Assembly (NCBI GenBank): GCA_030600655.1
Contig: JAUVLP010000008.1
Location: 1-46,817, forward strand
Source: Candidatus Eiseniibacteriota bacterium
GTDB taxonomy: Bacteria > Joyebacterota > Joyebacteria > Joyebacterales > Joyebacteraceae
Length of the DNA stretch: 46,817 nt
Reading direction: 5' to 3'
In this document: piece after piece, positions 14,959-44,816 of the stretch
How positions within the stretch are numbered: the stretch's first letter is position 1
Layout: each line of letters starts with the position of its first letter
Made by a program: the position numbers and the translations under genes
Notes under the pieces: generated by a model
Told to the model about the DNA's origin: nothing
Seen by the model: only the letters and a program-made list of their open reading frames with translations
Database searches by the model: none

Positions 14959-15918
14959 ATGCCATCACGTTTTCCGGAAGCCGATCTGACGAAGCTCAAC
15001 AGGGTCTCGATGGCAGCACGGGGCGGCACAGTCAGTGTGGACAGCTTTGTGCATCCCGTCGAACCCGGTCCGGAGATCGATGATCTTCTCTCTATGGTTC
15101 CGGAAGTTTTTGCGGGCGCAGATTTCAAGACGGCAGTGGCTGCCGTCGCTTCCGCGGGACGTGCGGGACGGCCGGGACTCGCGATGTTCGGGGCGCACTT
15201 CATCAAGTGCGGGCTCAGTCGCCTCCTGATCGATCTTATGGAACGCGGCATTGTAACGGCCGTTGCGATGAACGGAGCTTGTGCCATTCACGACTACGAA
15301 ATCGCAATGTGGGGTGTAACGTCGGAGGATGTAGGTGCAGGATTGGAAGATGGAAGCTTCGGTATGTGCGCCGATACCGCCGATGGCATCAATGGTGCGA
15401 TAGTGGAGGGAGCGAAGCGGGGAGCGGGTTTTGGCGAGAGCATCGGGGAGCGTATTGTCGGCAATCGGAGTCCGTATCTTGATGCGAGCATACTTGGCCG
15501 CGCGTACGAGCTTGAGATACCTGCAACGGTGCACGTGGGTATGGGCACCGATATCATTCACCAGCACGCGTCTGCGGACGGAGCAGCGATCGGAGAGACA
15601 AGCCTCCGGGATTTCCGGATCCTGGCTCGTGTTGTCGGGGAGCTGGAGGATGGGTGCGTTCTCAATATTGGTTCCGCAGTCATTCTGCCGGAGGTGTTTC
15701 TGAAGGCGTTCTCAGTAGCCCGGAACCTTGGGTTCGAAGGTGGGGCGCTGACTACGATCTCGATGGATATGAATGAACCGTACAGGGCGCTCACCAACGT
15801 TGTCAGGAGGCCAACAGCGTATCGAGGTACAGGGATTGCGCTTAGAGGGCGTCACGAGCTCCTCTTCCCACTTTTCTGGGCGGGTGTGATCCGCGGTGTC
15901 GAGCGGGGCGGGACATGA
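14959..15918 (+). CDS. Deoxyhypusine synthase-like family protein (bacterial, uncharacterised)
   Basis: MFGAHFIKCGLSRLLIDLMERGIVTAVAMNGACAIHDYEIAMWGVTSEDVGAGLEDGSFGM...NIGSAVILPEVFLKAFSVARNLG. Strong AAGGAGG RBS. Confidence 0.6.
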   Translation: MPSRFPEADLTKLNRVSMAARGGTVSVDSFVHPVEPGPEIDDLLSMVPEVFAGADFKTAVAAVASAGRAGRPGLAMFGAHFIKCGLSRLLIDLMERGIVTAVAMNGACAIHDYEIAMWGVTSEDVGAGLEDGSFGMCADTADGINGAIVEGAKRGAGFGESIGERIVGNRSPYLDASILGRAYELEIPATVHVGMGTDIIHQHASADGAAIGETSLRDFRILARVVGELEDGCVLNIGSAVILPEVFLKAFSVARNLGFEGGALTTISMDMNEPYRALTNVVRRPTAYRGTGIALRGRHELLFPLFWAGVIRGVERGGT

Positions 15919-15931
15919 TAGGCAATAGATG

Positions 15932-15960
15932 TTGACATCAGACAAAGCTTGTGATAGACT
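15932..15960 (+). promoter_or_regulatory. sigma70-like promoter (TTGACA-N17-TAGACT)
   Basis: TTGACA 15932-15937, TAGACT 15955-15960. Confidence 0.65.
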
Positions 15961-15966
15961 GGCATT

Positions 15967-16196
15967 GAAGGTCAGGGTAGAAGAGAAGCCGATTCCAAGC
16001 GCGAAAGGACTCGCATCGCACCATTGCTAAGGGCTTTTTCTCAAATCTGACAGTGCACTCAGTAACGTGCATGGGCATGCCGCCCGCAGAGAGCGGGGCA
16101 TTGTCGTTAGTGTCAGATGGGACTCGCCCTTGGCTGATGAAGAATCTAAGGAATCCCGGCCGGGTGTGTCCCAGTGAGACACCCGGTCTTTTTTGT
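15967..16196 (+). ncRNA. Structured leader RNA / candidate cis-regulatory RNA or sRNA
   Basis: Between a good promoter and an intrinsic terminator. Closing helix ATCTGACA (16045-16052)/TGTCAGAT (16111-16118); internal helices GTGCAC (16053-16058)/GTGCAT (16067-16072, one G-U) and CCCGC (16083-16087)/GCGGG (16093-16097) extended by ATGC/GCAT. Confidence 0.5.
16160..16194 (+). terminator. Rho-independent terminator upstream of the sugar-transferase gene
   Basis: CCGGGTGTgTC-ccagt-GAgACACCCGG followed by TCTTTTTT. Confidence 0.85.
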
Positions 16197-16292
16197 GCCG
16201 GCCGCGATCAAGATGCAACTCCGGCAAAGCAGTGCCGATGCGAAAGCCGGCGGAGACACATCGAGACGTGTTCGCATGACGGGAGTGGAGCT

Positions 16293-16985
16293 TTGTACTT
16301 CGTCGATGAACGATTCGGATACGGGACGATTGAAGAACTCACGCGAGGCGATGTCGAGCGGGACAGCTTGGTGCGCGGCGAGTTCTACAGACGGTTCGTG
16401 AAGCGGCCGTTCGATGTGATCGCAAGTCTTACCGGCCTGATTGTGCTCTCACCTCTCTTTCTGTTGATCTCCCTTCTGGTCAAGCTTGACTCGCGCGGCC
16501 CGGTGCTTTTCAGCCAGTCGCGCGTTGGGAAGGATGGCCGGGAATTCGCGTTTCTGAAGTTCAGGTCCATGGTGATCGATGCTGAGGAACAGAAACACAC
16601 ACTCATGCACCTCAATGAACTTGATGGTCCTGTCTTCAAGATCAGCGACGATCCACGCATAACGCGTATCGGTTGCTTCCTGAGGAAGACCAGTTTTGAT
16701 GAGTTCCCACAGCTGATCAATATTCTCAAGGGTGACATGAGCCTGGTCGGTCCGCGCCCGCCGCTTCCCGGCGAAGTAGAGAAGTACGAGGGCTGGCAGC
16801 GTGAGAAACTGTCGGTGCTTCCCGGTATTACATGCCTCTGGCAGATCAGTGGAAGAAATCACATTGGGTTTACGGAGTGGATGAGGCTGGACATCGACTA
16901 CATCAGGCGGCAGTCGCTGGGGATGGATCTGAGGATTCTCGCCAGAACGCTGCCGGCTGTGCTTACGAGAAAGGGAGCGTACTAG
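16293..16985 (+). CDS. Undecaprenyl-phosphate sugar phosphotransferase (bacterial sugar transferase, WbaP/PglC-like)
   Basis: RRFVKRPFDVIASLTGLIVLSPLFLLISLLVKLDSRGPVLFSQSRVGKDGREFAFLKFRSM...DEFPQLINILKGDMSLVGPRPPLPGEV. Likely TTG start at 16293 (GGAG upstream); the track's 16053 start reads through the terminator. Confidence 0.9.
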   Translation: MYFVDERFGYGTIEELTRGDVERDSLVRGEFYRRFVKRPFDVIASLTGLIVLSPLFLLISLLVKLDSRGPVLFSQSRVGKDGREFAFLKFRSMVIDAEEQKHTLMHLNELDGPVFKISDDPRITRIGCFLRKTSFDEFPQLINILKGDMSLVGPRPPLPGEVEKYEGWQREKLSVLPGITCLWQISGRNHIGFTEWMRLDIDYIRRQSLGMDLRILARTLPAVLTRKGAY

Positions 16986-18814: not shown

Positions 18815-18884
18815 TTAGGACGTTTCGAGTCGGAGTCCGGTGAGGGGCTCCACTGCATACGGGTGCGACAGGGGGATTGACTCT

Positions 18885-19667
18885 ATGCTGTCGAGGAATG
18901 GAAGACTGCTCCTCGTACTTTTTGGAGCGGTTCTGATATTGTGCATACAGGGCTGCGGCTCTGCGCGCATCGACGCGGAAGCGCCGGATGCGGCGCCAGG
19001 TGCTATGGGAACGGCATTAGTCCCGGAGGATGCGTTTTCGGCCGGGGGGCACACGGTCGAGTACAGATTGCGGATTGGTGACCGGATAGAGGTTGGATTC
19101 CTGGTAGACGGCGAGTTGGATTTCACAACTCCGGTTACCCCGAGCGGGACGGTAAGCGTACCGCTGGCCGGGGAGATTATGGCGGCGGGGAAGACCACAG
19201 GTGAGCTTTCCAGGGCGGTGGAGGAAGCAATGGGCGACTACCTCCTGGATCCGACAGTTACGATCGTTATCGCAGGGATCGCGGATCAACCGATCTTCGT
19301 GATCGGGGAGGTGGACAAGCCCGGACGGATCGAAGCAACAGGCGAGATGACCGTGACTCGCGCGCTCTCAGCGGCCGGGGGAATTCTGTCCTCAGGCAAA
19401 GCAAGCAGCGTGATGGTGGTGCGGACCTCCGGAGTCGAGGAGCCGATCGCGATTCAGGTGGACGTGAGAAAGGTTCTGAACGGAGAGGATTTCGCGGAGG
19501 ATATCATTCTCGTTCCGAATGATGTGGTCTATGTTCCCAAATCATTGATCGGAAAGGTCAACGAGTTCGTTGATCTCTTCTTCGACAACATCGCTCCTGC
19601 CCAGCTGTTCTATCTGCGGGGTTACAATATGGCGCACCTTGCGGACGACAGGCAGGCCTGGTACTAG
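18885..19667 (+). CDS. Polysaccharide export outer-membrane lipoprotein (Wza-like, Poly_export + SLBB)
   Basis: Lipobox-like LILCIQGCGS; YRLRIGDRIEVGFLVDGELDFTTPVTPSGTVSVPLAGEI; PIFVIGEVDKPGRIEATGEMTVTRALSAAGG. Confidence 0.88.
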   Translation: MLSRNGRLLLVLFGAVLILCIQGCGSARIDAEAPDAAPGAMGTALVPEDAFSAGGHTVEYRLRIGDRIEVGFLVDGELDFTTPVTPSGTVSVPLAGEIMAAGKTTGELSRAVEEAMGDYLLDPTVTIVIAGIADQPIFVIGEVDKPGRIEATGEMTVTRALSAAGGILSSGKASSVMVVRTSGVEEPIAIQVDVRKVLNGEDFAEDIILVPNDVVYVPKSLIGKVNEFVDLFFDNIAPAQLFYLRGYNMAHLADDRQAWY

Positions 19668-19707
19668 CACTGGCTTGCGGCCACGGCATTTGAGGAAGGA
19701 TACCGGC

Positions 19708-21066
19708 TTGGAAGGCAGCAACCGGGGAATGCAGGACACATCGCTCCTGCGTGATGTAGTCTACATCATCTTCAAGAGGAAGATGGTGCTGGTCACGCTT
19801 GCCGTTGTCGGAGTGGCAATCATGATATACGGCCTCAAGACGAATGTGCCGAGCTATGAGGCGTCGGCACGCGTGTTGATAAAGCGTCAGCACCAGGGAT
19901 ACGTAATGCCGTCGGAAACGCGCGCTGTGCTCAAGCGGGCCGAGGTCATTAACTCCGAGATATCGATAATCACCAGCACGGCCGTTGCGGAGGCCGTTGT
20001 AGACATACTGGAACTGGCGACCGGGGATGACCGTCCGATGGCCATCCACCGGATGTCGAAAATGATCAAAGCACAGGAGAAGCCGGAGTCCGATATCATA
20101 GACATCTCGTTCCGTCACAGGGATCCCGAGATGGCAGCCGACGTCGTGAACGCGGCTCTCGATGCCTACCTTCAGATCAGGAAAAGGGTTGCACTGAATT
20201 ACGAAGCTGTCGTCTATCTGGATACGCAGGCGGATAGAGTTCGGGCTGAGCGTGACTCGACCGCCATGGAGATAGCGCGTTTCAGTGGCGAGAGGGGCGA
20301 ACTCGCGCAAGGGCGCCGCGCAGAGCAGCAGATGGGGCTCCAGGACCGCTTCAAGAACGAGCTGGCGACTTTGAACTCACACATTCAGTCGTTTGAGGAA
20401 AAGCTGGCTATGGTCCAGGAGTGGTTGGACACGGGAGCGGATCCGTCCCACGTTCCGAGCGGGGAAATCTACGCTATGGCGACCGTTCGGCAGGCCAAGA
20501 ACCGGCTGGTGGAGCTTGAACTGGTTCTGGCAGAGGCCTCTTCGAAGTACACGCCTGATCATCCGGAGGTCCTGAAACTTGAACGGCAGATCACGGGCAC
20601 CCAGGAGGTTCTGCGGAACGAGGTGCGACAGGCCCTTGCTCGGCTGCAGATGCGCGTCGATGAGTGGAAGGCCGAGCGTCGCGCTGTGATCGGCATGTTG
20701 GATGACCTGCACAGCGAGGACGAGGAGCTGGCCAGGAACCTGCTCACTGTCAGGCTCCTGGAGCACGATCTGTCCATCCATGCGGACATGTATGGGATCA
20801 TTATGGACAGGCGGGAGCAGTTCAGGATCACGGCCGCCACCGATCCGAATCTCCTGAACATCGGTATCGTGGCTAGGGCCGCTATCCCGGCGAAGCCGAC
20901 ACCTCAACCGGTTAACATGAGGATCGTTGCAGGTCTCTTCACGATCGTTTTTGGCATTCTGCTCGTCTTCATCATGGAGAGAGCAGACAACTCACTCGAG
21001 CGCCGCGAGGATATCCAGAGGGTGTTGGGACTCAAGGTGCTGGCCACGATCCCGGAGCGTAAGTAG
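19708..21066 (+). CDS. Chain-length determinant / Wzz (GumC-like) protein
   Basis: Two TM segments flanking a long coiled-coil region; YEASARVLIKRQ; PTPQPVNMRIVAGLFTIVFGILLVF. Start TTG 19708 or ATG 19729. Confidence 0.82.
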   Translation: MEGSNRGMQDTSLLRDVVYIIFKRKMVLVTLAVVGVAIMIYGLKTNVPSYEASARVLIKRQHQGYVMPSETRAVLKRAEVINSEISIITSTAVAEAVVDILELATGDDRPMAIHRMSKMIKAQEKPESDIIDISFRHRDPEMAADVVNAALDAYLQIRKRVALNYEAVVYLDTQADRVRAERDSTAMEIARFSGERGELAQGRRAEQQMGLQDRFKNELATLNSHIQSFEEKLAMVQEWLDTGADPSHVPSGEIYAMATVRQAKNRLVELELVLAEASSKYTPDHPEVLKLERQITGTQEVLRNEVRQALARLQMRVDEWKAERRAVIGMLDDLHSEDEELARNLLTVRLLEHDLSIHADMYGIIMDRREQFRITAATDPNLLNIGIVARAAIPAKPTPQPVNMRIVAGLFTIVFGILLVFIMERADNSLERREDIQRVLGLKVLATIPERK

Positions 21067-21067
21067 C

Positions 21068-21916
21068 GTGTATACGAAGTTCTACAAGCTGGCCGAGAGG
21101 CCGTTTGAGCTTACGCCTGATCTCAGGTTCCTCTATCTGAGTGACAAGCACAGAGAGGCGCTTGCCCACCTGACCTACGGAGTCAGGGAACGACGTGTTT
21201 TCGTACAGCTCACCGGAGAAGTTGGGACCGGAAAGACGACGATGCTGGACGCTCTTGTTCACAGACTGGACGCCGGCACAAAGGTGGCGTGGCTCTCGAA
21301 TACTACGATCGGGCGGACCGACCTCCTGCGTGTTCTTGGATGGGGACTGGGGATCAAGCTCAAGGGTCGCTCGAAGATGGAGATCCACCGCGAGATCTCG
21401 GAGTCTCTCAAGGCGTGGACAGCATCCAGCCGGAATGCCGTTTTTATTGTGGACGAGGCTCAGAACCTCAATCTTCCGTTGCTCGAAGAGGTGAGACTTT
21501 TGTCTAACCTTCGCTCCTCCGGGCACGCGAGCCTTCAGATCGTCCTTGCCGGGCAACCGGAACTAAGGCGGAAGCTGGAGCTTCAGCAGCTGAGACAGCT
21601 CAGACAGCGCATCAGCATCAGGTTCCATCTCGATCCGCTTTCGCGCGTCGAGACAGGGGAGTATATCAGGCACAGACTTACAGTGGCCGGCGCGGCGGAT
21701 CTCGAGATTTTTGATCGCAGCGCGGTCGATGAGATATTCAGTTACTCGGGAGGTGTCCCGAGGATGATCAACACGGTTTGTGATAACGCGCTTCTGGCAG
21801 GCTATGCCGATAATCGTCCTTGGATCGGCAAGAGAACGATAACTGAGACAGTCGAGGCCGTCGAATGCAGGACGGGCGGCCATGCTGAGCAGCACGTTCA
21901 GCCGGGCGCCGTCTAG
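21068..21916 (+). CDS. ExeA/GspA-type AAA ATPase (XrtA/PEP-CTERM-associated ATPase-like)
   Basis: YTKFYKLAERPFELTPDLRFLYLSDKHREALAHLTYGV...TGEVGTGKTTMLDAL...AVFIVDEAQNLNLPLLEEVRLLSNL. Confidence 0.87.
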   Translation: MYTKFYKLAERPFELTPDLRFLYLSDKHREALAHLTYGVRERRVFVQLTGEVGTGKTTMLDALVHRLDAGTKVAWLSNTTIGRTDLLRVLGWGLGIKLKGRSKMEIHREISESLKAWTASSRNAVFIVDEAQNLNLPLLEEVRLLSNLRSSGHASLQIVLAGQPELRRKLELQQLRQLRQRISIRFHLDPLSRVETGEYIRHRLTVAGAADLEIFDRSAVDEIFSYSGGVPRMINTVCDNALLAGYADNRPWIGKRTITETVEAVECRTGGHAEQHVQPGAV

Positions 21917-21945
21917 CCGAGTCGGTACGGGATTGGAAGACCGCA

Positions 21946-22776
21946 ATGAGCAAGATTTCGAAAGCTATGGAGAGAGCCGACCGCGAGGAACGCCGGGGGC
22001 ATGATACCGGCGAGCCCGGTATGGTTGGAGAGGTCCGCGAGAAGGCGCAGCCGGCTGAGGACCGCCCGAAAACAGAGGCGGGTGGGATGTCCCCCGAGGA
22101 TTCCTCGGCGAGGCGTGCCCCGGTCCGGACGGCGCGCGCGGTCGAGCTTCCGAAGAGTGCTGAGGAATACCACAACCTGGCGTCTGAGGTCTACCTTGCT
22201 TTGCCGGACATGCGCTCGCGCGTTCTCATGATCGTGAGTGCCGTAGAGGGAGAGGGCACAAGCACCGTGGCGCGGGAGTTCGCCCACAGCGTGGCAGCCA
22301 CCAATGAGGTCCAGACGTTGCTCATGGATGCGAATCTACGCCGGCCGCAGCACCACAAGGCGCTGAGAGCGTCGCAGGATCCTGGTCTGACGGATCTGGT
22401 TCTAGGTGGCGCCGCTTTTGATTCGTGTGTGCGAGATGTCGGCATTCCGCATCTTGTTCTTATGCCGGCGGGACGAAGAGTTGTCGCGCCTCCACGCATC
22501 TTCCTTGACGCCGGTCTCGACAACGTCATCGGGGAGTGTCGCAGGCGTTTCCAGCTGACCGTGATCGATGTCCCACCCCTTCTTTCCTTCTCAGAGGGGA
22601 TACAACTATCCCGGAAGGTAGATGGTGTCGTGCTCGTGGTAAGGGCCGGTCGGACCAAGCGCCAGCTCGTGGAGCTTGCAGTTGACAAGCTCAGCGATGC
22701 GGGTGCGAATGTCATTGGAACCGTTCTGAATCGGAGACAATTCTACATACCTCCGATGATCTACGAGCGCTTGTAG
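21946..22776 (+). CDS. CpsD/CapB-like (BY-kinase family) P-loop protein with altered Walker A
   Basis: MSKISKAMERADREE...MIVSAVEGEGTSTVAREFAHSVA...LLMDANLRRPQHHKAL...LTVIDVPPLLSFSEGIQLSRKVDGVVLVVRAGRT. Confidence 0.82.
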   Translation: MSKISKAMERADREERRGHDTGEPGMVGEVREKAQPAEDRPKTEAGGMSPEDSSARRAPVRTARAVELPKSAEEYHNLASEVYLALPDMRSRVLMIVSAVEGEGTSTVAREFAHSVAATNEVQTLLMDANLRRPQHHKALRASQDPGLTDLVLGGAAFDSCVRDVGIPHLVLMPAGRRVVAPPRIFLDAGLDNVIGECRRRFQLTVIDVPPLLSFSEGIQLSRKVDGVVLVVRAGRTKRQLVELAVDKLSDAGANVIGTVLNRRQFYIPPMIYERL

Positions 22777-22884
22777 ACGTTGGCGCTCCAATTCCACGAA
22801 GGGATGCGGTTCGGCCCATGACTCGTACGGTGGCGACAGCAAGTTTATCAAAGAGCGGCGTCGGTTGGACCCGGGAGCAGTGCG

Positions 22885-24453
22885 ATGAGTGGCACCACAG
22901 AGCGGATGCGGCGTATGTTCGAGCGCAGCGAAGACTACCTTGGGCGCTCGTGGCCCGTGTGGGCTCTCGCCATTCTGATGTATGCGGCCGTTTCCTGGGT
23001 GCTTCTTACCAAGGTCCGCCTGCCTGACCCCCTGTATCTCATTGTTTTCGTCATGGCGCTCGCCATCGTAGCCATAACCCTCCTCAAGATCGAGTGGGCG
23101 GTCCTCGGCCTCGCGGCCATGATAGCATTCACGAGGCCCGGGATCAGCTTTGGCGCAGCTAATACCTTCCACGTCAGCGGTTTCAATCTCGCGCTGGTCG
23201 GTGTCTGGATGGTCTACATTGTCCGGTACGCTGCAGATACGCAGTTGGCGGCCAAGGGTCCTCTTGTACGCCGCACGCAGCTGGACACTATCGTTATCGT
23301 CTTCCTTGTTCTGGTGACGCTCTCGATGCTTGTGGGGCTGAACAAGAACTGGCAGGCTGTGGCGCGAGCAAGGATCCTGCTCTACTGGAAAGAACAGATA
23401 CTCTACTTCGCCTGGTTCTACCTTGTGGTGACCATGCTCAGGACACCGAAGGACCTGAGACGCTTTGCGGTTATCTTTGCTACTGCAGGTCTGTTTGTTG
23501 CCGCTGTCGGTCTTTACAACAGGTTCGGCGGCGCCATTGAGGCCGTCCACGCGACGACGGAGGAAATTGAGGCCGGCGTGATCGGAGGACGTGCCGAGGG
23601 GGCCGGCTCAAAGTTTCTCGGCCTCGGGCACCCGAATTTCCTGGGTGCGTTTCTGATCATGTCCATGCCGTTCTGGTTCTTCGCTGTCGATCACCTGAAA
23701 AGGACGTGGCACAAACTCTTCTCCGATGCTGCCATCCTTCTGGGCTTCCTCGGTCTTCTGTTTACGTACTCGCGGAGCGCGTGGTTTGGAGTTGTGACCG
23801 GTATCGGTATGCTGAGTTTGACCGACAGACGAACCATAATGAGAATCGTTGTTTTCCTTGTTGTCTTTGGCGTTGTCGCGCAGGCGCTATCGTTTGCATA
23901 CACGGGCATGGGCGCTACGAAGCTCATAGCGTTGAGGTTCGAGCAGTTGAACAGAAGTGATTTCTCGGCGAGGCCGGCCATCTTCGCGAGTGCTCTCGAA
24001 GTGATAGCAAATAACCCTCTGACCGGCGTGGGGCCCGGCGCGTTCCCGTGGCACGCGGACAACACCATGGTGATCGGCATTCTCACGCAGGCGCACAATC
24101 TGCTTCTTACTGTCGCTGCTGAAATGGGCATCCCGGCGGCGATCACATACATCATCTTCCTTATCGCCATCTTCCGAATGGGAATGCGGAACCTCCGCGC
24201 CGTCGCGCGTGAGCCGGGATACGGTTTCATTGCCCAGGGTGCGTACGCCGCCTTTTTTGCCATCATAGCTCAGACCTTCTTTGTCCATCTCTTCTATCAT
24301 CGAAATGTCGGATACGCTTTCTACGCCCTGATGGGGATCATCGTGGCGTTGAACCGGATGGTGCGGGAAGGGCAGCTTCCTGTTCCACGCAGGGAGAGCG
24401 CAGAGTCCGGTCAAAGACGGATCGAGGCCGATTCGGTCTGGGCTGAACCATGA
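22885..24453 (+). CDS. O-antigen polymerase/ligase-like membrane protein (Wzy/WaaL family)
   Basis: Multi-TM; ARPAIFASALEVIANNPLTGVGPGAFPWHADNTMVIGILTQAHNLLLTVAAEMGIPAAI. Confidence 0.82.
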   Translation: MSGTTERMRRMFERSEDYLGRSWPVWALAILMYAAVSWVLLTKVRLPDPLYLIVFVMALAIVAITLLKIEWAVLGLAAMIAFTRPGISFGAANTFHVSGFNLALVGVWMVYIVRYAADTQLAAKGPLVRRTQLDTIVIVFLVLVTLSMLVGLNKNWQAVARARILLYWKEQILYFAWFYLVVTMLRTPKDLRRFAVIFATAGLFVAAVGLYNRFGGAIEAVHATTEEIEAGVIGGRAEGAGSKFLGLGHPNFLGAFLIMSMPFWFFAVDHLKRTWHKLFSDAAILLGFLGLLFTYSRSAWFGVVTGIGMLSLTDRRTIMRIVVFLVVFGVVAQALSFAYTGMGATKLIALRFEQLNRSDFSARPAIFASALEVIANNPLTGVGPGAFPWHADNTMVIGILTQAHNLLLTVAAEMGIPAAITYIIFLIAIFRMGMRNLRAVAREPGYGFIAQGAYAAFFAIIAQTFFVHLFYHRNVGYAFYALMGIIVALNRMVREGQLPVPRRESAESGQRRIEADSVWAEP

Positions 24454-39878: not shown

Positions 39879-39953
39879 GCGGGAATAGCTCAGTGGTAGA
39901 GCGCCACCTTGCCAAGGTGGATGTCGCGGGTTCGAGCCCCGTTTCCCGCTCCA
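39879..39953 (+). tRNA. tRNA-Gly (anticodon GCC), CCA encoded
   Basis: Acceptor GCGGGAA/TTCCCGC, anticodon stem CCACC-ttGCCaa-GGTGG, T-arm GCGGGTTCGAGCCCCGT, CCA end. Confidence 0.97.
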
Positions 39954-40005
39954 GCTATATCAGGCAGGGGTTCTCTGATCTTCGAGCCCCTGCCTGTCCA
40001 AGTCA

Positions 40006-40081
40006 GGCGGCGTAGCCAAGTGGCTAAGGCAGAGGATTGCAAATCCTCGATCCCCCGGTTCGAATCCGGGCGCCGCCTCCA
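40006..40081 (+). tRNA. tRNA-Cys (anticodon GCA), CCA encoded
   Basis: Acceptor GGCGGCG/CGCCGCC, anticodon loop ttGCAaa, T-arm CCCGGTTCGAATCCGGG, CCA end. Confidence 0.97.
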
Positions 40082-40168
40082 TCTGCACCATCGGCCGGTG
40101 TTCCTGGTCTCGCGAGGAGTTTGGCGCACCGCGCTGGCATCCTTTTGAGGGATTTTCCTGCGTCACGA

Positions 40169-40259
40169 GCCGGGGTGGCGAAATTGGTAGACGCATCGGA
40201 CTTAAAATCCGCTGGGGCGTTCTCGCCCCGTGCCGGTTCGATTCCGGCCCCCGGCACCA
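40169..40259 (+). tRNA. tRNA-Leu (anticodon UAA), CCA encoded, long variable arm
   Basis: Acceptor GCCGGGG/CCCCGGC, anticodon loop tTAAaa, variable arm TGGGGCGTTCTCGCCCC, CCA end. Confidence 0.97.
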
Positions 40260-40376: not shown

Positions 40377-40450
40377 GTGTGGCATGAGCTGTGTTGCGAA
40401 TGTTGCGCTCCCGGTTTGTGCGCGGGAGAGGGGGCACGGAGGAATTTGCC

Positions 40451-42502
40451 ATGCTGGGCTCGTGTGTACTGGGTAGGGAGCGGTGCTGCAGGATGCCGGG
40501 TTGGGTGAGTGCTGTTGCTGCAGTGCTTCTGGCACTCGTTCTCATGACACCTGCATCCTGTGAGACTGCCTGTTACCCACGGCTGTGCAATATCTACTTC
40601 CCGGACCTGGGTTCTGCGGATCTTGAGCTTCTGGCACAATGGGACGTTCTGGTTCTGGCGAAGCGAGCGGTAGATGAGCATCCTGATGAACTCGCGATGC
40701 TCAGGATCCTGAATCCGGATATCCAGCTCATTGCCCACATGCCCGTAGGCTACCACGGAGAGTGGCTGTCTCCGCCGATCAACGGTGATCTTGTCGCCGA
40801 GCTTCATGCAAACGACTGGTGGTTGAAGGATGCGACGGGCGAGAGGATGTTTCTGCCGTGTGGAGATGGGATTCTGAACGAGACCGTCTGGGCGCCCCTC
40901 AATGGGGAGGGGAAGATGTTGTGCGAGTGGATGGCAGAGTACATCCACGAGCGGCTCGGCCCTGGAGGGCCATGGGATGGTGTCTTCTTGGACTGCTGCT
41001 TCGATGATATCTACTGGGTGGGTGATGCGCACGGCAGCCCGGTGGACGCCAACGGTGATGGGGTCGCTGATGATGCATTAGAACTGAATGCGGCGTGGAG
41101 AGCAGGTATGGAAACTCTTGTCTCTCGACTGAGGGAACTCGTCGGAGACGGCTTCACGGTGACTACCAATGGGAACAACACACTGTATGCCGGTTGCAAC
41201 GGATCCACGCGTGAGCGTTTCCCGCATATGCACGGCGATTGGTATGAGAATATTACGAATCCCGAGTGGGGATACATCGCGATCTCAACTCTCTACTGCG
41301 ATCCAATCGTATCTATTGTCAACGTTATGTGGGAGGGGCCCGTCGTCGAAGGCGAACCCGTCCGCAACGATGCGTTGGAGAAGAAATTCGGGTTCACGTA
41401 TGCCAGCACGCTGGTTTTCGGGGACGGCTACTTCTCCTTTGATGGTGGAGATGGATTGCCGGAGCATTGCCAGGCATGGTGGCACGAACTCTACGACCTT
41501 AAGCTGGGGGAACCAAAGGGGGGGCGGGAGCGGCCGGACATCAGCATCGAGTGGGTCGAGCACTGTGAGATGGTGAGTCTCAGGCGCTTTGGAAACGGTG
41601 TCGCTGTGGTCAATCCCACAACCGTGACTCAGACCGTGGTTCTGGGAGGAACGTATTTTCCGAGGGGATCGTTCAACGGCGATTTCTATCCGCGCTCCGA
41701 TGCAATAACGAGCATAGATCTTGAGAAGGAGTCCGGTGACGTAGTTGTCGGTAGTGGAATCGCTCTGTCATGGGCGCCGGACGTGCAGGTTGCCGTGAAC
41801 GAATCGGGTGCTGTCGAGCTCTCCTGGAGTGGTGTCGGGGGCGCCTCCGGATACTCGGTCTACCGTTCACACAGACCGGACGGTTCCAGCAGTCCCGCAG
41901 CTGTGATCGCAGTGGTGAGCGCACCAGGACATGTGGATACAACTGCGAGTCCGAATCGAACATATTTCTACAGGATCGCGCCCATAGATGGATGGAGTTG
42001 TGAGGGAGCGTTGTCAAGAAACGTCTCCATTATTACGCCGTCGGAGCGAACCTCGAGGGAGCGTTCTGAAGTGGACAGTGTGAACAATCTTCCGGATGTG
42101 TCGGACGGGGTGGATGGATCACCAGAGAGTTGCCAGGACGTCTGTGCTGTGACTGTCGACGGGACGGCGGAGTCGTTCTGGGGACGGCCGGGGGAAGAGG
42201 GAAGGCGAGTGGGGAGCGTATTGAGCCTCCACGGTAGCCACCCTAATCCCGCGGGTAAGGCGACCTCCATCTCGTTCGGCATTGCAGAAGGCTGTGGTGG
42301 CGCAGTTACTCTGACCATCTACGATATCAGAGGGCGAGTGGTGAGACAGCTCCTGGACAAGCCGCTGGCTGTGGGCAGCCACATGGTGACCTGGGATGCT
42401 CGAAGTGATCACGGCCGCCGCGTTGCCGCAGGATGCTATGTGTATGCCTTGACCCGCCGGGAGGAGAGACTGACAGGCAAGATCGTTGTGCTCGGGCCGT
42501 GA
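40451..42502 (+). CDS. Secreted TIM-barrel glycoside-hydrolase-like protein (GHL/GH114-like) with Fn3-like region and FlgD/T9SS-like C-terminus (paralog 1)
   Basis: Signal/TM segment; WDGVFLDCCFDD, TTNGNN, HGDWYENITN; C-terminal NPAGKATSISFGI...LTIYDIRGRVVRQLLDKPLAVGSHMVTWDARSDHGRRVAAGCYVYAL. Start 40451 with CGGAGGA upstream. Confidence 0.72.
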   Translation: MLGSCVLGRERCCRMPGWVSAVAAVLLALVLMTPASCETACYPRLCNIYFPDLGSADLELLAQWDVLVLAKRAVDEHPDELAMLRILNPDIQLIAHMPVGYHGEWLSPPINGDLVAELHANDWWLKDATGERMFLPCGDGILNETVWAPLNGEGKMLCEWMAEYIHERLGPGGPWDGVFLDCCFDDIYWVGDAHGSPVDANGDGVADDALELNAAWRAGMETLVSRLRELVGDGFTVTTNGNNTLYAGCNGSTRERFPHMHGDWYENITNPEWGYIAISTLYCDPIVSIVNVMWEGPVVEGEPVRNDALEKKFGFTYASTLVFGDGYFSFDGGDGLPEHCQAWWHELYDLKLGEPKGGRERPDISIEWVEHCEMVSLRRFGNGVAVVNPTTVTQTVVLGGTYFPRGSFNGDFYPRSDAITSIDLEKESGDVVVGSGIALSWAPDVQVAVNESGAVELSWSGVGGASGYSVYRSHRPDGSSSPAAVIAVVSAPGHVDTTASPNRTYFYRIAPIDGWSCEGALSRNVSIITPSERTSRERSEVDSVNNLPDVSDGVDGSPESCQDVCAVTVDGTAESFWGRPGEEGRRVGSVLSLHGSHPNPAGKATSISFGIAEGCGGAVTLTIYDIRGRVVRQLLDKPLAVGSHMVTWDARSDHGRRVAAGCYVYALTRREERLTGKIVVLGP

Positions 42503-42521
42503 CAAGAAAGCGCCTCGTACA

Positions 42522-42569
42522 CGGGTCCGTGTGACCGGGTCCCCGCACATCGGCCCGGGTGACCGGGCC
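42522..42569. repeat. Tandem imperfect GC-rich hairpin repeat
   Basis: CGGGTCCGTGTGACCGGGTCC (42522-42542) and CGGCCCGGGTGACCGGGCC (42551-42569); the second is a perfect 7-bp stem GGCCCGG/CCGGGCC with a GTGA loop. Confidence 0.6.
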
Positions 42570-42670
42570 TCCTGCAGTACCGCCGACCATGTCCCAGACC
42601 TCTGTCTGCCGAGAGGGCACGCCGTGCCGGGCGGCAGCAATGCAGACTGCACCCTTAATCACTTGACACG

Positions 42671-42686
42671 TGGCACAACTCTTGCA
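42671..42686 (+). promoter_or_regulatory. sigma54 (-24/-12) promoter, TGGCACAACTCTTGCA
   Basis: Exact TGGCAC-N5-TTGCA; 64 nt upstream of the likely GTG start at 42750. Confidence 0.7.
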
Positions 42687-42749
42687 ATACAGCACGGTTG
42701 TGCCATGGGGTGAGACGCTCGAGTGGGTAAAGGCGGAGGGGGTCGATCA

Positions 42750-44816
42750 GTGACGAATTCAGCGATCAGATGTGGGATGGAGGATTGTCGGCGCCGGGTG
42801 CTGGTGCTGCTCGGGATCGGTATGATTCTGACGGTGCTGGTGTTGGGGTGGCCGCACGCAGCGAGCGCAGATGTGTCCTACCCACGGATCGCGAACATCT
42901 ATTTCCCGACGCTGATCGGCGCGGACCTGGAGAAGCTGGCTCGGTATGATGTGCTTGTTCTCGCGAAACGCGGGGAGGAATGGTACAGGGACGAGCTTGC
43001 AGAGCTTAGGGAATTGAACCCTGATATCACGCTTCTTGTTCACATGCCGGTCGGGTACGCGGGAGATTGGGAAGAGCCTTCGATCAACGGGGACATGTGG
43101 GCGAAGTTGTTTGAGGACGACTGGTGGATGAGAGATTCTGCAGGAGACAGGGTCAGGCTTGGGTGCGGTGATTACGTTCTGAATGTATCCACGATGTGCC
43201 CGGAGAATTCGCGAGGACAGATGCTTTGCGACTGGCTGCCGAAGTTCATCGCTGACCGGCTTGGTCCAGGGGGGTTGTGGGATGGCGTCTATCTCGACTA
43301 TTGCATGGATGATATCAGCTGGGTGAACGAATCGCTCGTCGGGCTGATGGATGCGGACAGGAACGGGGCGGGCGATGTGGCGTCTGAGCTGGACGCAGCG
43401 TGGAGAGCTGGTATGGAACGCGTCGTGTCGAGACTCCGCGGGTTCGTAGGGCCCGAGTACATCATTATGACGAACGGCAACAACACGTTGTACGAGAGTT
43501 GCGACGGATCGACGCGTGAGGACTTCCCGAACATGCACGGTGGCTGGTACGAGAACATCACCAACAGTGAGCACGGATACCAGGCGATTCAATCCAACTA
43601 CCGTCGTCCATCCATCAACATAATCAACGCCATCTATCACGGTGCAGCCGACCCCGAGGAGGAGATGCCCGGTGGTGCAGAGCGAAAGCTGCGCTACACG
43701 CTCGCCAGTACATTGGTATATGGCGACGGGTACTTTTCCTTCGATGGAGGAGGCGGACTTCCCGATCACTGTCAGATGTGGTGGAGTGAGCTCTACGATC
43801 TCGATCTGGGCGAGCCATTGGGCAGGGCGGAGGATGTGGCCGTCTATCCCGGCGCCGCTCCGTGGGTCGAGCACCCTGAGATGATTCGCCTTCGAAGGTT
43901 CTCGAAGGGGCTCGTTGTTGTCAATCCGACCACCTGCTCTCAGAGTATACAGCTCAGTGGCGTTTACTACCCGGCCGATGGATTCAACGGGCGGTTCTTC
44001 CCGCTTGAGACGAGCGAGGCCCAGGTCGATATGGAGTACTATTCTGGGGCAATCTACGTTGGGAATGGTCGTGTGCTTGCCGGTGTACCGGCGGTCGAGT
44101 GTGAACTCCTCCAAGACGGGGATGTGAGGCTTGTCTGGAGTGAGGTCGATGGTGCGATCGAGTACAGTGTCTACCGCACGATCCCTCCGGGTAGCAGACC
44201 GGGAGTGGAGGAGCTCATTGCCGTTGTCAATAGCCCAACGTACTGTGAAAGCGCGGTTGGGAATCGTGGTGAGTACGCATATCGCGTGGCTCCGATAGAT
44301 GAATTCGGATGTGAAGGTCAGCTGTCCGCTCCGGTCGCGGCATTAGCAGATAATTCTAGCGACCTGTCTGTGTTGACAATGGCTGATTGGCCGGACGGGC
44401 AGCCTGATCTTCCGTGGCGCGAGCCAGGTAGGCCGGAGATACACGTAGCGGAGATGAGTGGTGGCCGTGATCCGGAACAGAGGGACATTGGGCTTCCAGA
44501 GTCCGGCAGTGGTGATCCAGTCGCAGCGACGCTTCACGGCTGTGCGCCGAACCCGGTGCACAATGAGGCCGTGATCTCATTTGTCATCAGCGACGATGAT
44601 CGCTGGAACGGATCGCGGCATGTGACGCTTGCCATTTACACGGTAGCTGGGCGGTGTGTCTCGAAGATCCTGGACACCGAACTGGTCCCGGGGGAGCACT
44701 CGGTCGTGTGGAACAGGCGCACCAGCGTTGGCGCGCGGGCTCCTGCGGGGTGCTACCTCTATGCCTTGACGGTTGCCGGCAGAGTGATGAACGGCAAGAT
44801 GGTGCTGCTGCATTGA
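42750..44816 (+). CDS. Secreted TIM-barrel glycoside-hydrolase-like protein with FlgD/T9SS-like C-terminus (paralog 2)
   Basis: Co-linear with paralog 1: YPRIANIYFPTLIGADLEKLARYDVLVLAKR, WDGVYLDYCMDD, MTNGNNTLYESCDGSTREDFPNMHGGWYENITN, YGDGYFSFDGGGGLPDHCQMWW. GTG 42750 preceded by GGCGGAGGGGG. Confidence 0.72.
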   Translation: MTNSAIRCGMEDCRRRVLVLLGIGMILTVLVLGWPHAASADVSYPRIANIYFPTLIGADLEKLARYDVLVLAKRGEEWYRDELAELRELNPDITLLVHMPVGYAGDWEEPSINGDMWAKLFEDDWWMRDSAGDRVRLGCGDYVLNVSTMCPENSRGQMLCDWLPKFIADRLGPGGLWDGVYLDYCMDDISWVNESLVGLMDADRNGAGDVASELDAAWRAGMERVVSRLRGFVGPEYIIMTNGNNTLYESCDGSTREDFPNMHGGWYENITNSEHGYQAIQSNYRRPSINIINAIYHGAADPEEEMPGGAERKLRYTLASTLVYGDGYFSFDGGGGLPDHCQMWWSELYDLDLGEPLGRAEDVAVYPGAAPWVEHPEMIRLRRFSKGLVVVNPTTCSQSIQLSGVYYPADGFNGRFFPLETSEAQVDMEYYSGAIYVGNGRVLAGVPAVECELLQDGDVRLVWSEVDGAIEYSVYRTIPPGSRPGVEELIAVVNSPTYCESAVGNRGEYAYRVAPIDEFGCEGQLSAPVAALADNSSDLSVLTMADWPDGQPDLPWREPGRPEIHVAEMSGGRDPEQRDIGLPESGSGDPVAATLHGCAPNPVHNEAVISFVISDDDRWNGSRHVTLAIYTVAGRCVSKILDTELVPGEHSVVWNRRTSVGARAPAGCYLYALTVAGRVMNGKMVLLH

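Follow-up and report, generated by a model that had tools for sequence, protein, structure and literature searches.

A conserved leader RNA of an exopolysaccharide operon in Ca. Effluviviacota as a probable transcription attenuator

The RNA ahead of a sugar-transferase gene in the 46,817-nt window (the whole stretch of DNA that we analysed) probably acts in cis as a transcription attenuator for an exopolysaccharide (EPS) operon, alternating between 1:2, 2:3 and 3:4 pairings; the input to which it answers is a separate question. An intrinsic terminator lies upstream of the gene, a covarying antiterminator is mutually exclusive with it, and an anti-antiterminator helix, P1, shares a strand with the antiterminator. 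The conservation of the leader, P1, the terminator and the coevolution of the antiterminator strands are established by comparison of related sequences; we infer that formation of P1 is the off state and that a near-invariant 18-nt motif is the input site. The first-pass annotation had proposed a riboswitch or attenuator, and it is the cis-acting attenuator that we retain, on the strength of one-locus conservation throughout the phylum, P1 and the covarying antiterminator. Coordinates are collected in Table 1.

Table 1. Positions of leader elements and of the first operon gene in the window
Feature	Position	Strand	Remarks
Sigma70-type promoter, extended -10	15932..15960	+	TTGACA-N17-TAGACT; TG precedes the -10
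Leader core	~15995-16195	+	200-nt leader ahead of the sugar-transferase gene
Near-invariant 18-nt motif, CGAAAGGACUCRCAUMGC	16002..16019	+	Candidate input site; directly 5' of P1
SD-like GAAAGGA inside the 18-nt motif	16003-16009	+	
Possible 11-codon leader ORF, AUC...UGA (doubtful)	16015..16050	+	Overlaps the P1 5' strand
P1 5' strand (region 1), YUGCUAAGGGY	16024..16034	+	
Variable P1 interior (8-bp helix, two hairpins)	16045..16118	+	Fold not conserved between genera
Antiterminator 5' strand, GGGACUCGCCC	16119..16129	+	Overlaps the P1 3' strand
P1 3' strand (region 2), RCCCUUGGCAG-like	16126..16136	+	Pairs with 16024-16034
Intrinsic terminator (regions 3:4) and U tract	16159..16194	+	Conserved in 19/19
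Antiterminator 3' strand, i.e. terminator 5' arm (region 3), GGGUGUGUCCC	16162..16172	+	
Polyprenyl-phosphate sugar-1-phosphate transferase, catalytic domain only	16293..16985	+	First gene of the EPS operon

Anatomy and distribution of the leader

The leader is flanked upstream by a GSU2086-family gene (14959-15918) and downstream by the transferase gene. The promoter put forward in the first-pass annotation is borne out: all 19 aligned relatives have an equivalent one at the same position, immediately before the leader, and every match but one in a promoter-pattern search of the phylum fell at the leader locus. The number of promoter-like sites (1, with 0.6 expected) is not significant when taken alone. 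The -35/-10 spacer (15938-15954) contains a conserved string, CAAAGCTTGTGA. It belongs to an inverted repeat, ACAA-AGC-TTGT, that most genera keep and that is a possible operator.

The core of the leader (201 nt, 15995-16195) folded at -82 kcal/mol, compared with -65.8 kcal/mol for dinucleotide shuffles (z -3.6; 0/200). The fold of the longer segment 15967-16292 was unremarkable against shuffles (z -1.5). The terminator that had been read from the sequence earlier also proved real, with a hairpin at 16159-16187 and a U tract reaching 16194 (-22.4 kcal/mol, z -5.0). In the window's genus, three of the four aligned leaders have about 100 nt from terminator to start codon (16195-16292 in the window); the remaining leaders have only about 30-60 nt. 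Conservation of YTG-TAY-TTC-GTC in relatives backs the TTG previously proposed as the start of the transferase. A longer mechanical ORF, beginning at GTG 16053, was rejected as its start; it runs through the non-coding leader.

Conserved structure in homologous leaders, whose absence had been named beforehand as a refutation, was sought in the relatives and found. In an alignment of 19 leaders the conserved parts are the promoter, the motif CGAAAGGACUCRCAUMGC, P1 and the terminator. The GGACTC, AT and GC positions of the motif are invariant in all 19. Substitutions within GAAAGGA are exclusively A to G (one A/C change lies 5' of it), so that pairing with the 16S tail, which we take to be of the CCUCCUUUC type, would be kept. 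P1, the conserved outer helix, had been overlooked in the first-pass annotation. Its cells were paired in 97% of cases compared with 33-59% in slid controls, making this the best register by far. Two of its pairs changed on both sides (one occurs as C-G, U-A and U-G, the other as C-G, U-G and U-A); such changes are few because most pairs never vary. Applied to a MAFFT alignment, RNAalifold predicted little beyond P1 and the terminator.

The two strands of P1 are separated by 86-94 nt in all 19 leaders, and the individual folds between them differ. The 8-bp helix described earlier (16045-16052/16111-16118, enclosing two hairpins) is indeed present in the window, but the three-way junction that it would form is not conserved between genera. 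Since the length of the P1 interior is kept and its fold is not, the junction is a local feature. The octamer repeat GGACTCGC is exact in the window's genus only; its second copy lies at 16120-16127, as had been reported, and its first at 16007-16014 rather than 16008-16015.

A mismatch-tolerant pattern placed the leader in 19 of the 20 phylum genomes examined; 366 genomes from elsewhere gave no match. The 18-nt motif itself was not found, at up to 3 mismatches, in 366 genomes of other families. The sole phylum genome without the leader is 73% complete and is missing a close transferase too. In a DNA search of relatives the leader was always directly upstream of the transferase (19 family genomes), and covariance-model E-values for the leaders ran from 1e-26 to 1e-46. 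The covariance model found no convincing second copy in any genome except the draft G014 (57% complete), which has two leaders, L105 (G014:C291) and L107 (G014:C330), one of them nearly identical to that of G012; this draft is probably a mixed bin. A GTDB-wide pattern scan returned the same phylum and two Rikenellaceae matches that resemble coding sequence; we put both down to chance. The covariance model also matched G035 weakly (E 0.013; 118 genomes scanned), again by chance in our judgment. L025, the nearest transferase outside the phylum, is preceded by coding-like sequence and by no such leader. By taxonomy the phylum of the leader-bearing genomes is Ca. Effluviviacota, a phylum widespread in seeps, known through metagenome-assembled genomes and treated as separate from Ca. 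Eisenbacteria (PMC11323493); some of the records are titled Ca. Eisenbacteria.

The strict linkage to the transferase weakens an alternative raised in the first-pass annotation, that of a free-standing, terminated sRNA which happens by chance to lie ahead of the gene. The leader does have the structure, the promoter of its own and the strong terminator of such an RNA. However, leader and transferase are never apart in 19 genomes, and the gap between terminator and start is often just 30-60 nt, which leaves little space for a second promoter in most relatives. Moreover, the coevolving antiterminator described below would have no role in an sRNA, and we consider this reading very unlikely.

Antiterminator and proposed switch

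The segment GGGACUCGCCC is complementary at 10 of 11 positions to GGGUGUGUCCC, the 5' arm of the terminator. Because both antiterminator strands vary between genera, we tested them for coevolution, comparing the duplex energy of each leader's own strands with all reassignments of strands among nine representative leaders. Own duplexes averaged -17.4 kcal/mol and reassigned duplexes -14.2 kcal/mol, giving an exact permutation P of 6/362,880 for the nine representatives, whose relatedness is not fully corrected for. When only the bases outside P1 were used, P was 356/362,880, and z remained at about -3.5 or stronger after any single representative was dropped. In a sliding control a strong signal was obtained at the antiterminator segment only (z -4.1); the terminator's own arms gave z -3.7. 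A tenth leader, which lay outside the first test, keeps a 7-bp core of the antiterminator, and the result holds with it; its own segment is not the best partner for its terminator arm. The octamer repeat was also considered as a competing antiterminator and was rejected, its 5' copy displaying no coevolution with the terminator (P 0.73-0.86).

Partition functions were calculated at the length at which the 5' arm of the terminator has just emerged. With the motif and the P1 5' strand blocked, the predicted antiterminator reached at least 0.86 in 17 of 19 leaders; it was poor in leaders L049 and L046 in this blocked-state model. In the free RNA, the balance between P1 and the antiterminator ranged from 0 to 1 across species. 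In the full-length RNA at equilibrium, P1 and the terminator nearly always win; thus, switching must be kinetic.

The proposed attenuator would set the entry of RNA polymerase into the EPS operon. An RNA begun near 15967 would expose the 18-nt motif first and P1 afterwards. If P1 (1:2) formed, the 5' arm of the terminator would be left free, and the terminator (3:4) would stop transcription about 100 nt before the transferase start. If instead an occupant covered the motif together with the neighbouring P1 5' strand, the P1 3' strand would pair with the terminator 5' arm (2:3) and permit read-through. Candidates for the occupant, close to one another in likelihood, would be a dedicated RNA-binding protein, a small ligand, and a ribosome or 30S subunit at the SD-like GAAAGGA.

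Candidate inputs

The likelihoods that we attach below to a ligand, a protein and a leader peptide divide the question of input among them; none of the three competes with the switch. In a metabolite riboswitch, P1 would be stabilised when an aptamer made up of the motif and the P1 domain sensed a small molecule, c-di-GMP or a nucleotide sugar for instance. The strong fold, the near-invariant motif, P1 as switching helix and the terminator as output would all suit such a device, which would regulate a committed step of EPS synthesis. We nevertheless find a riboswitch doubtful. Aptamers are normally conserved in the junctions inside P1, whereas the inside of the present P1 shows little conservation and varies in fold from genus to genus; neither a second locus nor any locus outside the phylum was found. 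The first-pass annotation had recognised no known class, and the Rfam models, including those for c-di-GMP, agreed with it, no class coming near its cut-off, whether in the window (searched at E 10) or in ten relatives (E 3).

Conservation that lies in sequence rather than in structure, at a single locus, is what would be expected if a dedicated RNA-binding protein recognised the 18-nt motif and blocked P1, and one can draw a short hairpin whose loop is ANGGAC. Such a protein is possible, if somewhat doubtful, as no obvious regulator lies beside the leader and the candidates from known families failed. Antitermination by a NusG paralogue (RfaH, LoaP or UpxY) was rejected upon finding one NusG-domain protein each in 11 genomes of the phylum and none in two. 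CsrA/RsmA control, prompted by the ANGGAC loop, was set aside as well, with CsrA present in 0 of 20 genomes and three control genomes positive. An ANTAR domain was found in 1 of 20 genomes and in 0 of 14 controls, a search whose sensitivity rests on one clear match, and ANTAR control was likewise rejected.

The third candidate is ribosome-mediated attenuation at a short leader peptide, in which a stalled or waiting ribosome would mask region 1 and permit the antiterminator. The putative ORF has an SD (AAAGGA), an AUA/AUC start at 16015 and a UGA stop at 16048, and its codons Leu-Leu(CUA)-Arg-Val fall inside the P1 5' strand; CUA accounts for 1.8% of Leu codons in the window's genes. Each of the nine representatives has an in-frame stop between codons 9 and 13, seven of them at exactly codon 12, with UGA, UAA and UAG all in use and against a background of 16%, and the layout fits that of 1:2/2:3/3:4 attenuators. 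Against a peptide, an AUG start is present in none of 20 leaders, in four g4 leaders the frame stays open as far as codons 16-46, and in a further leader, from g8, the conserved CUGACAG string is out of frame and so supplies no stop of this kind. At codon 3, furthermore, positions 1 and 2 vary and position 3 is constant, and the spacer is kept as CUCRCAU, more conservation than a plain distance between SD and start would call for. A leader peptide is in our judgment unlikely. Loading of a 30S subunit at GAAAGGA remains a candidate that would require no unknown factor.

Related systems and the downstream operon

Attenuators of the trp type have four regions, whose 1:2, 2:3 and 3:4 pairings exclude one another, and end in an intrinsic terminator. 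The leader described here resembles them in this scheme and in its intrinsic terminator, but its 1:2 pairing encloses about 90 nt and it has no AUG-initiated leader peptide; moreover, trp-type attenuators control amino-acid genes whereas this leader precedes polysaccharide genes. Like JUMPstart/ops with RfaH, and like the LoaP and UpxY systems, it combines a long leader on a polysaccharide operon with a conserved element that governs elongation into the operon, here by prediction. It differs from these systems in that no NusG paralogue was found and in that control is predicted to run through a local alternative hairpin and need not be processive. The EAR element of Bacillus eps operons is a structured cis RNA within an exopolysaccharide operon that counteracts termination, an activity predicted for the present leader as well. 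Unlike EAR, the leader has no Rfam match and precedes the first gene beside its own terminator, an arm of which the antiterminator uses.

Attenuation as a general mechanism is textbook knowledge. The RNA family, the sensor motif and the restriction to one phylum appear to be undescribed in Rfam 15 and in the literature searched, in which few subscription journals were covered; the main text of PMC11323493 contains neither 'riboswitch' nor 'regulat...'. We entertain as a tentative possibility that the 18-nt motif and P1 make up a new sensor class that gates a whole exopolysaccharide operon in one phylum only; examples would be a new aptamer, or an attenuator that senses 30S subunits or initiation and whose AUA/AUC start has to be weak. 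The leader would represent a regulatory RNA family not described so far, one that would act at the committed exopolysaccharide step in a seep phylum and whose switching model can be tested, and one more case in which polysaccharide production is apparently gated at transcription elongation, here without a NusG paralogue. The near-invariant motif provides a definite handle for identifying the signal.

The transferase matches PF02397 (8.7e-66) and covers the C-terminal half only of the EPS/WbaP models (TIGR03025). Downstream of it the operon encodes a GT39-like protein, Wza, Wzz, an XrtA-type ATPase, a tyrosine kinase, a Wzy-like protein and glycosyltransferases, and it is fully syntenic in six genomes from six genera. 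The export, chain-length, ATPase and kinase proteins (18840-24450) bear a likeness, below NCBIfam cut-offs, to XrtA/PEP-CTERM-associated proteins. Further along the window, at 40391-44816, are two adjacent and similar large proteins of 703 and 697 aa that look secreted and whose C-terminal ends appear FlgD-like by eye; three tRNA genes (39879-40256) adjoin the pair.
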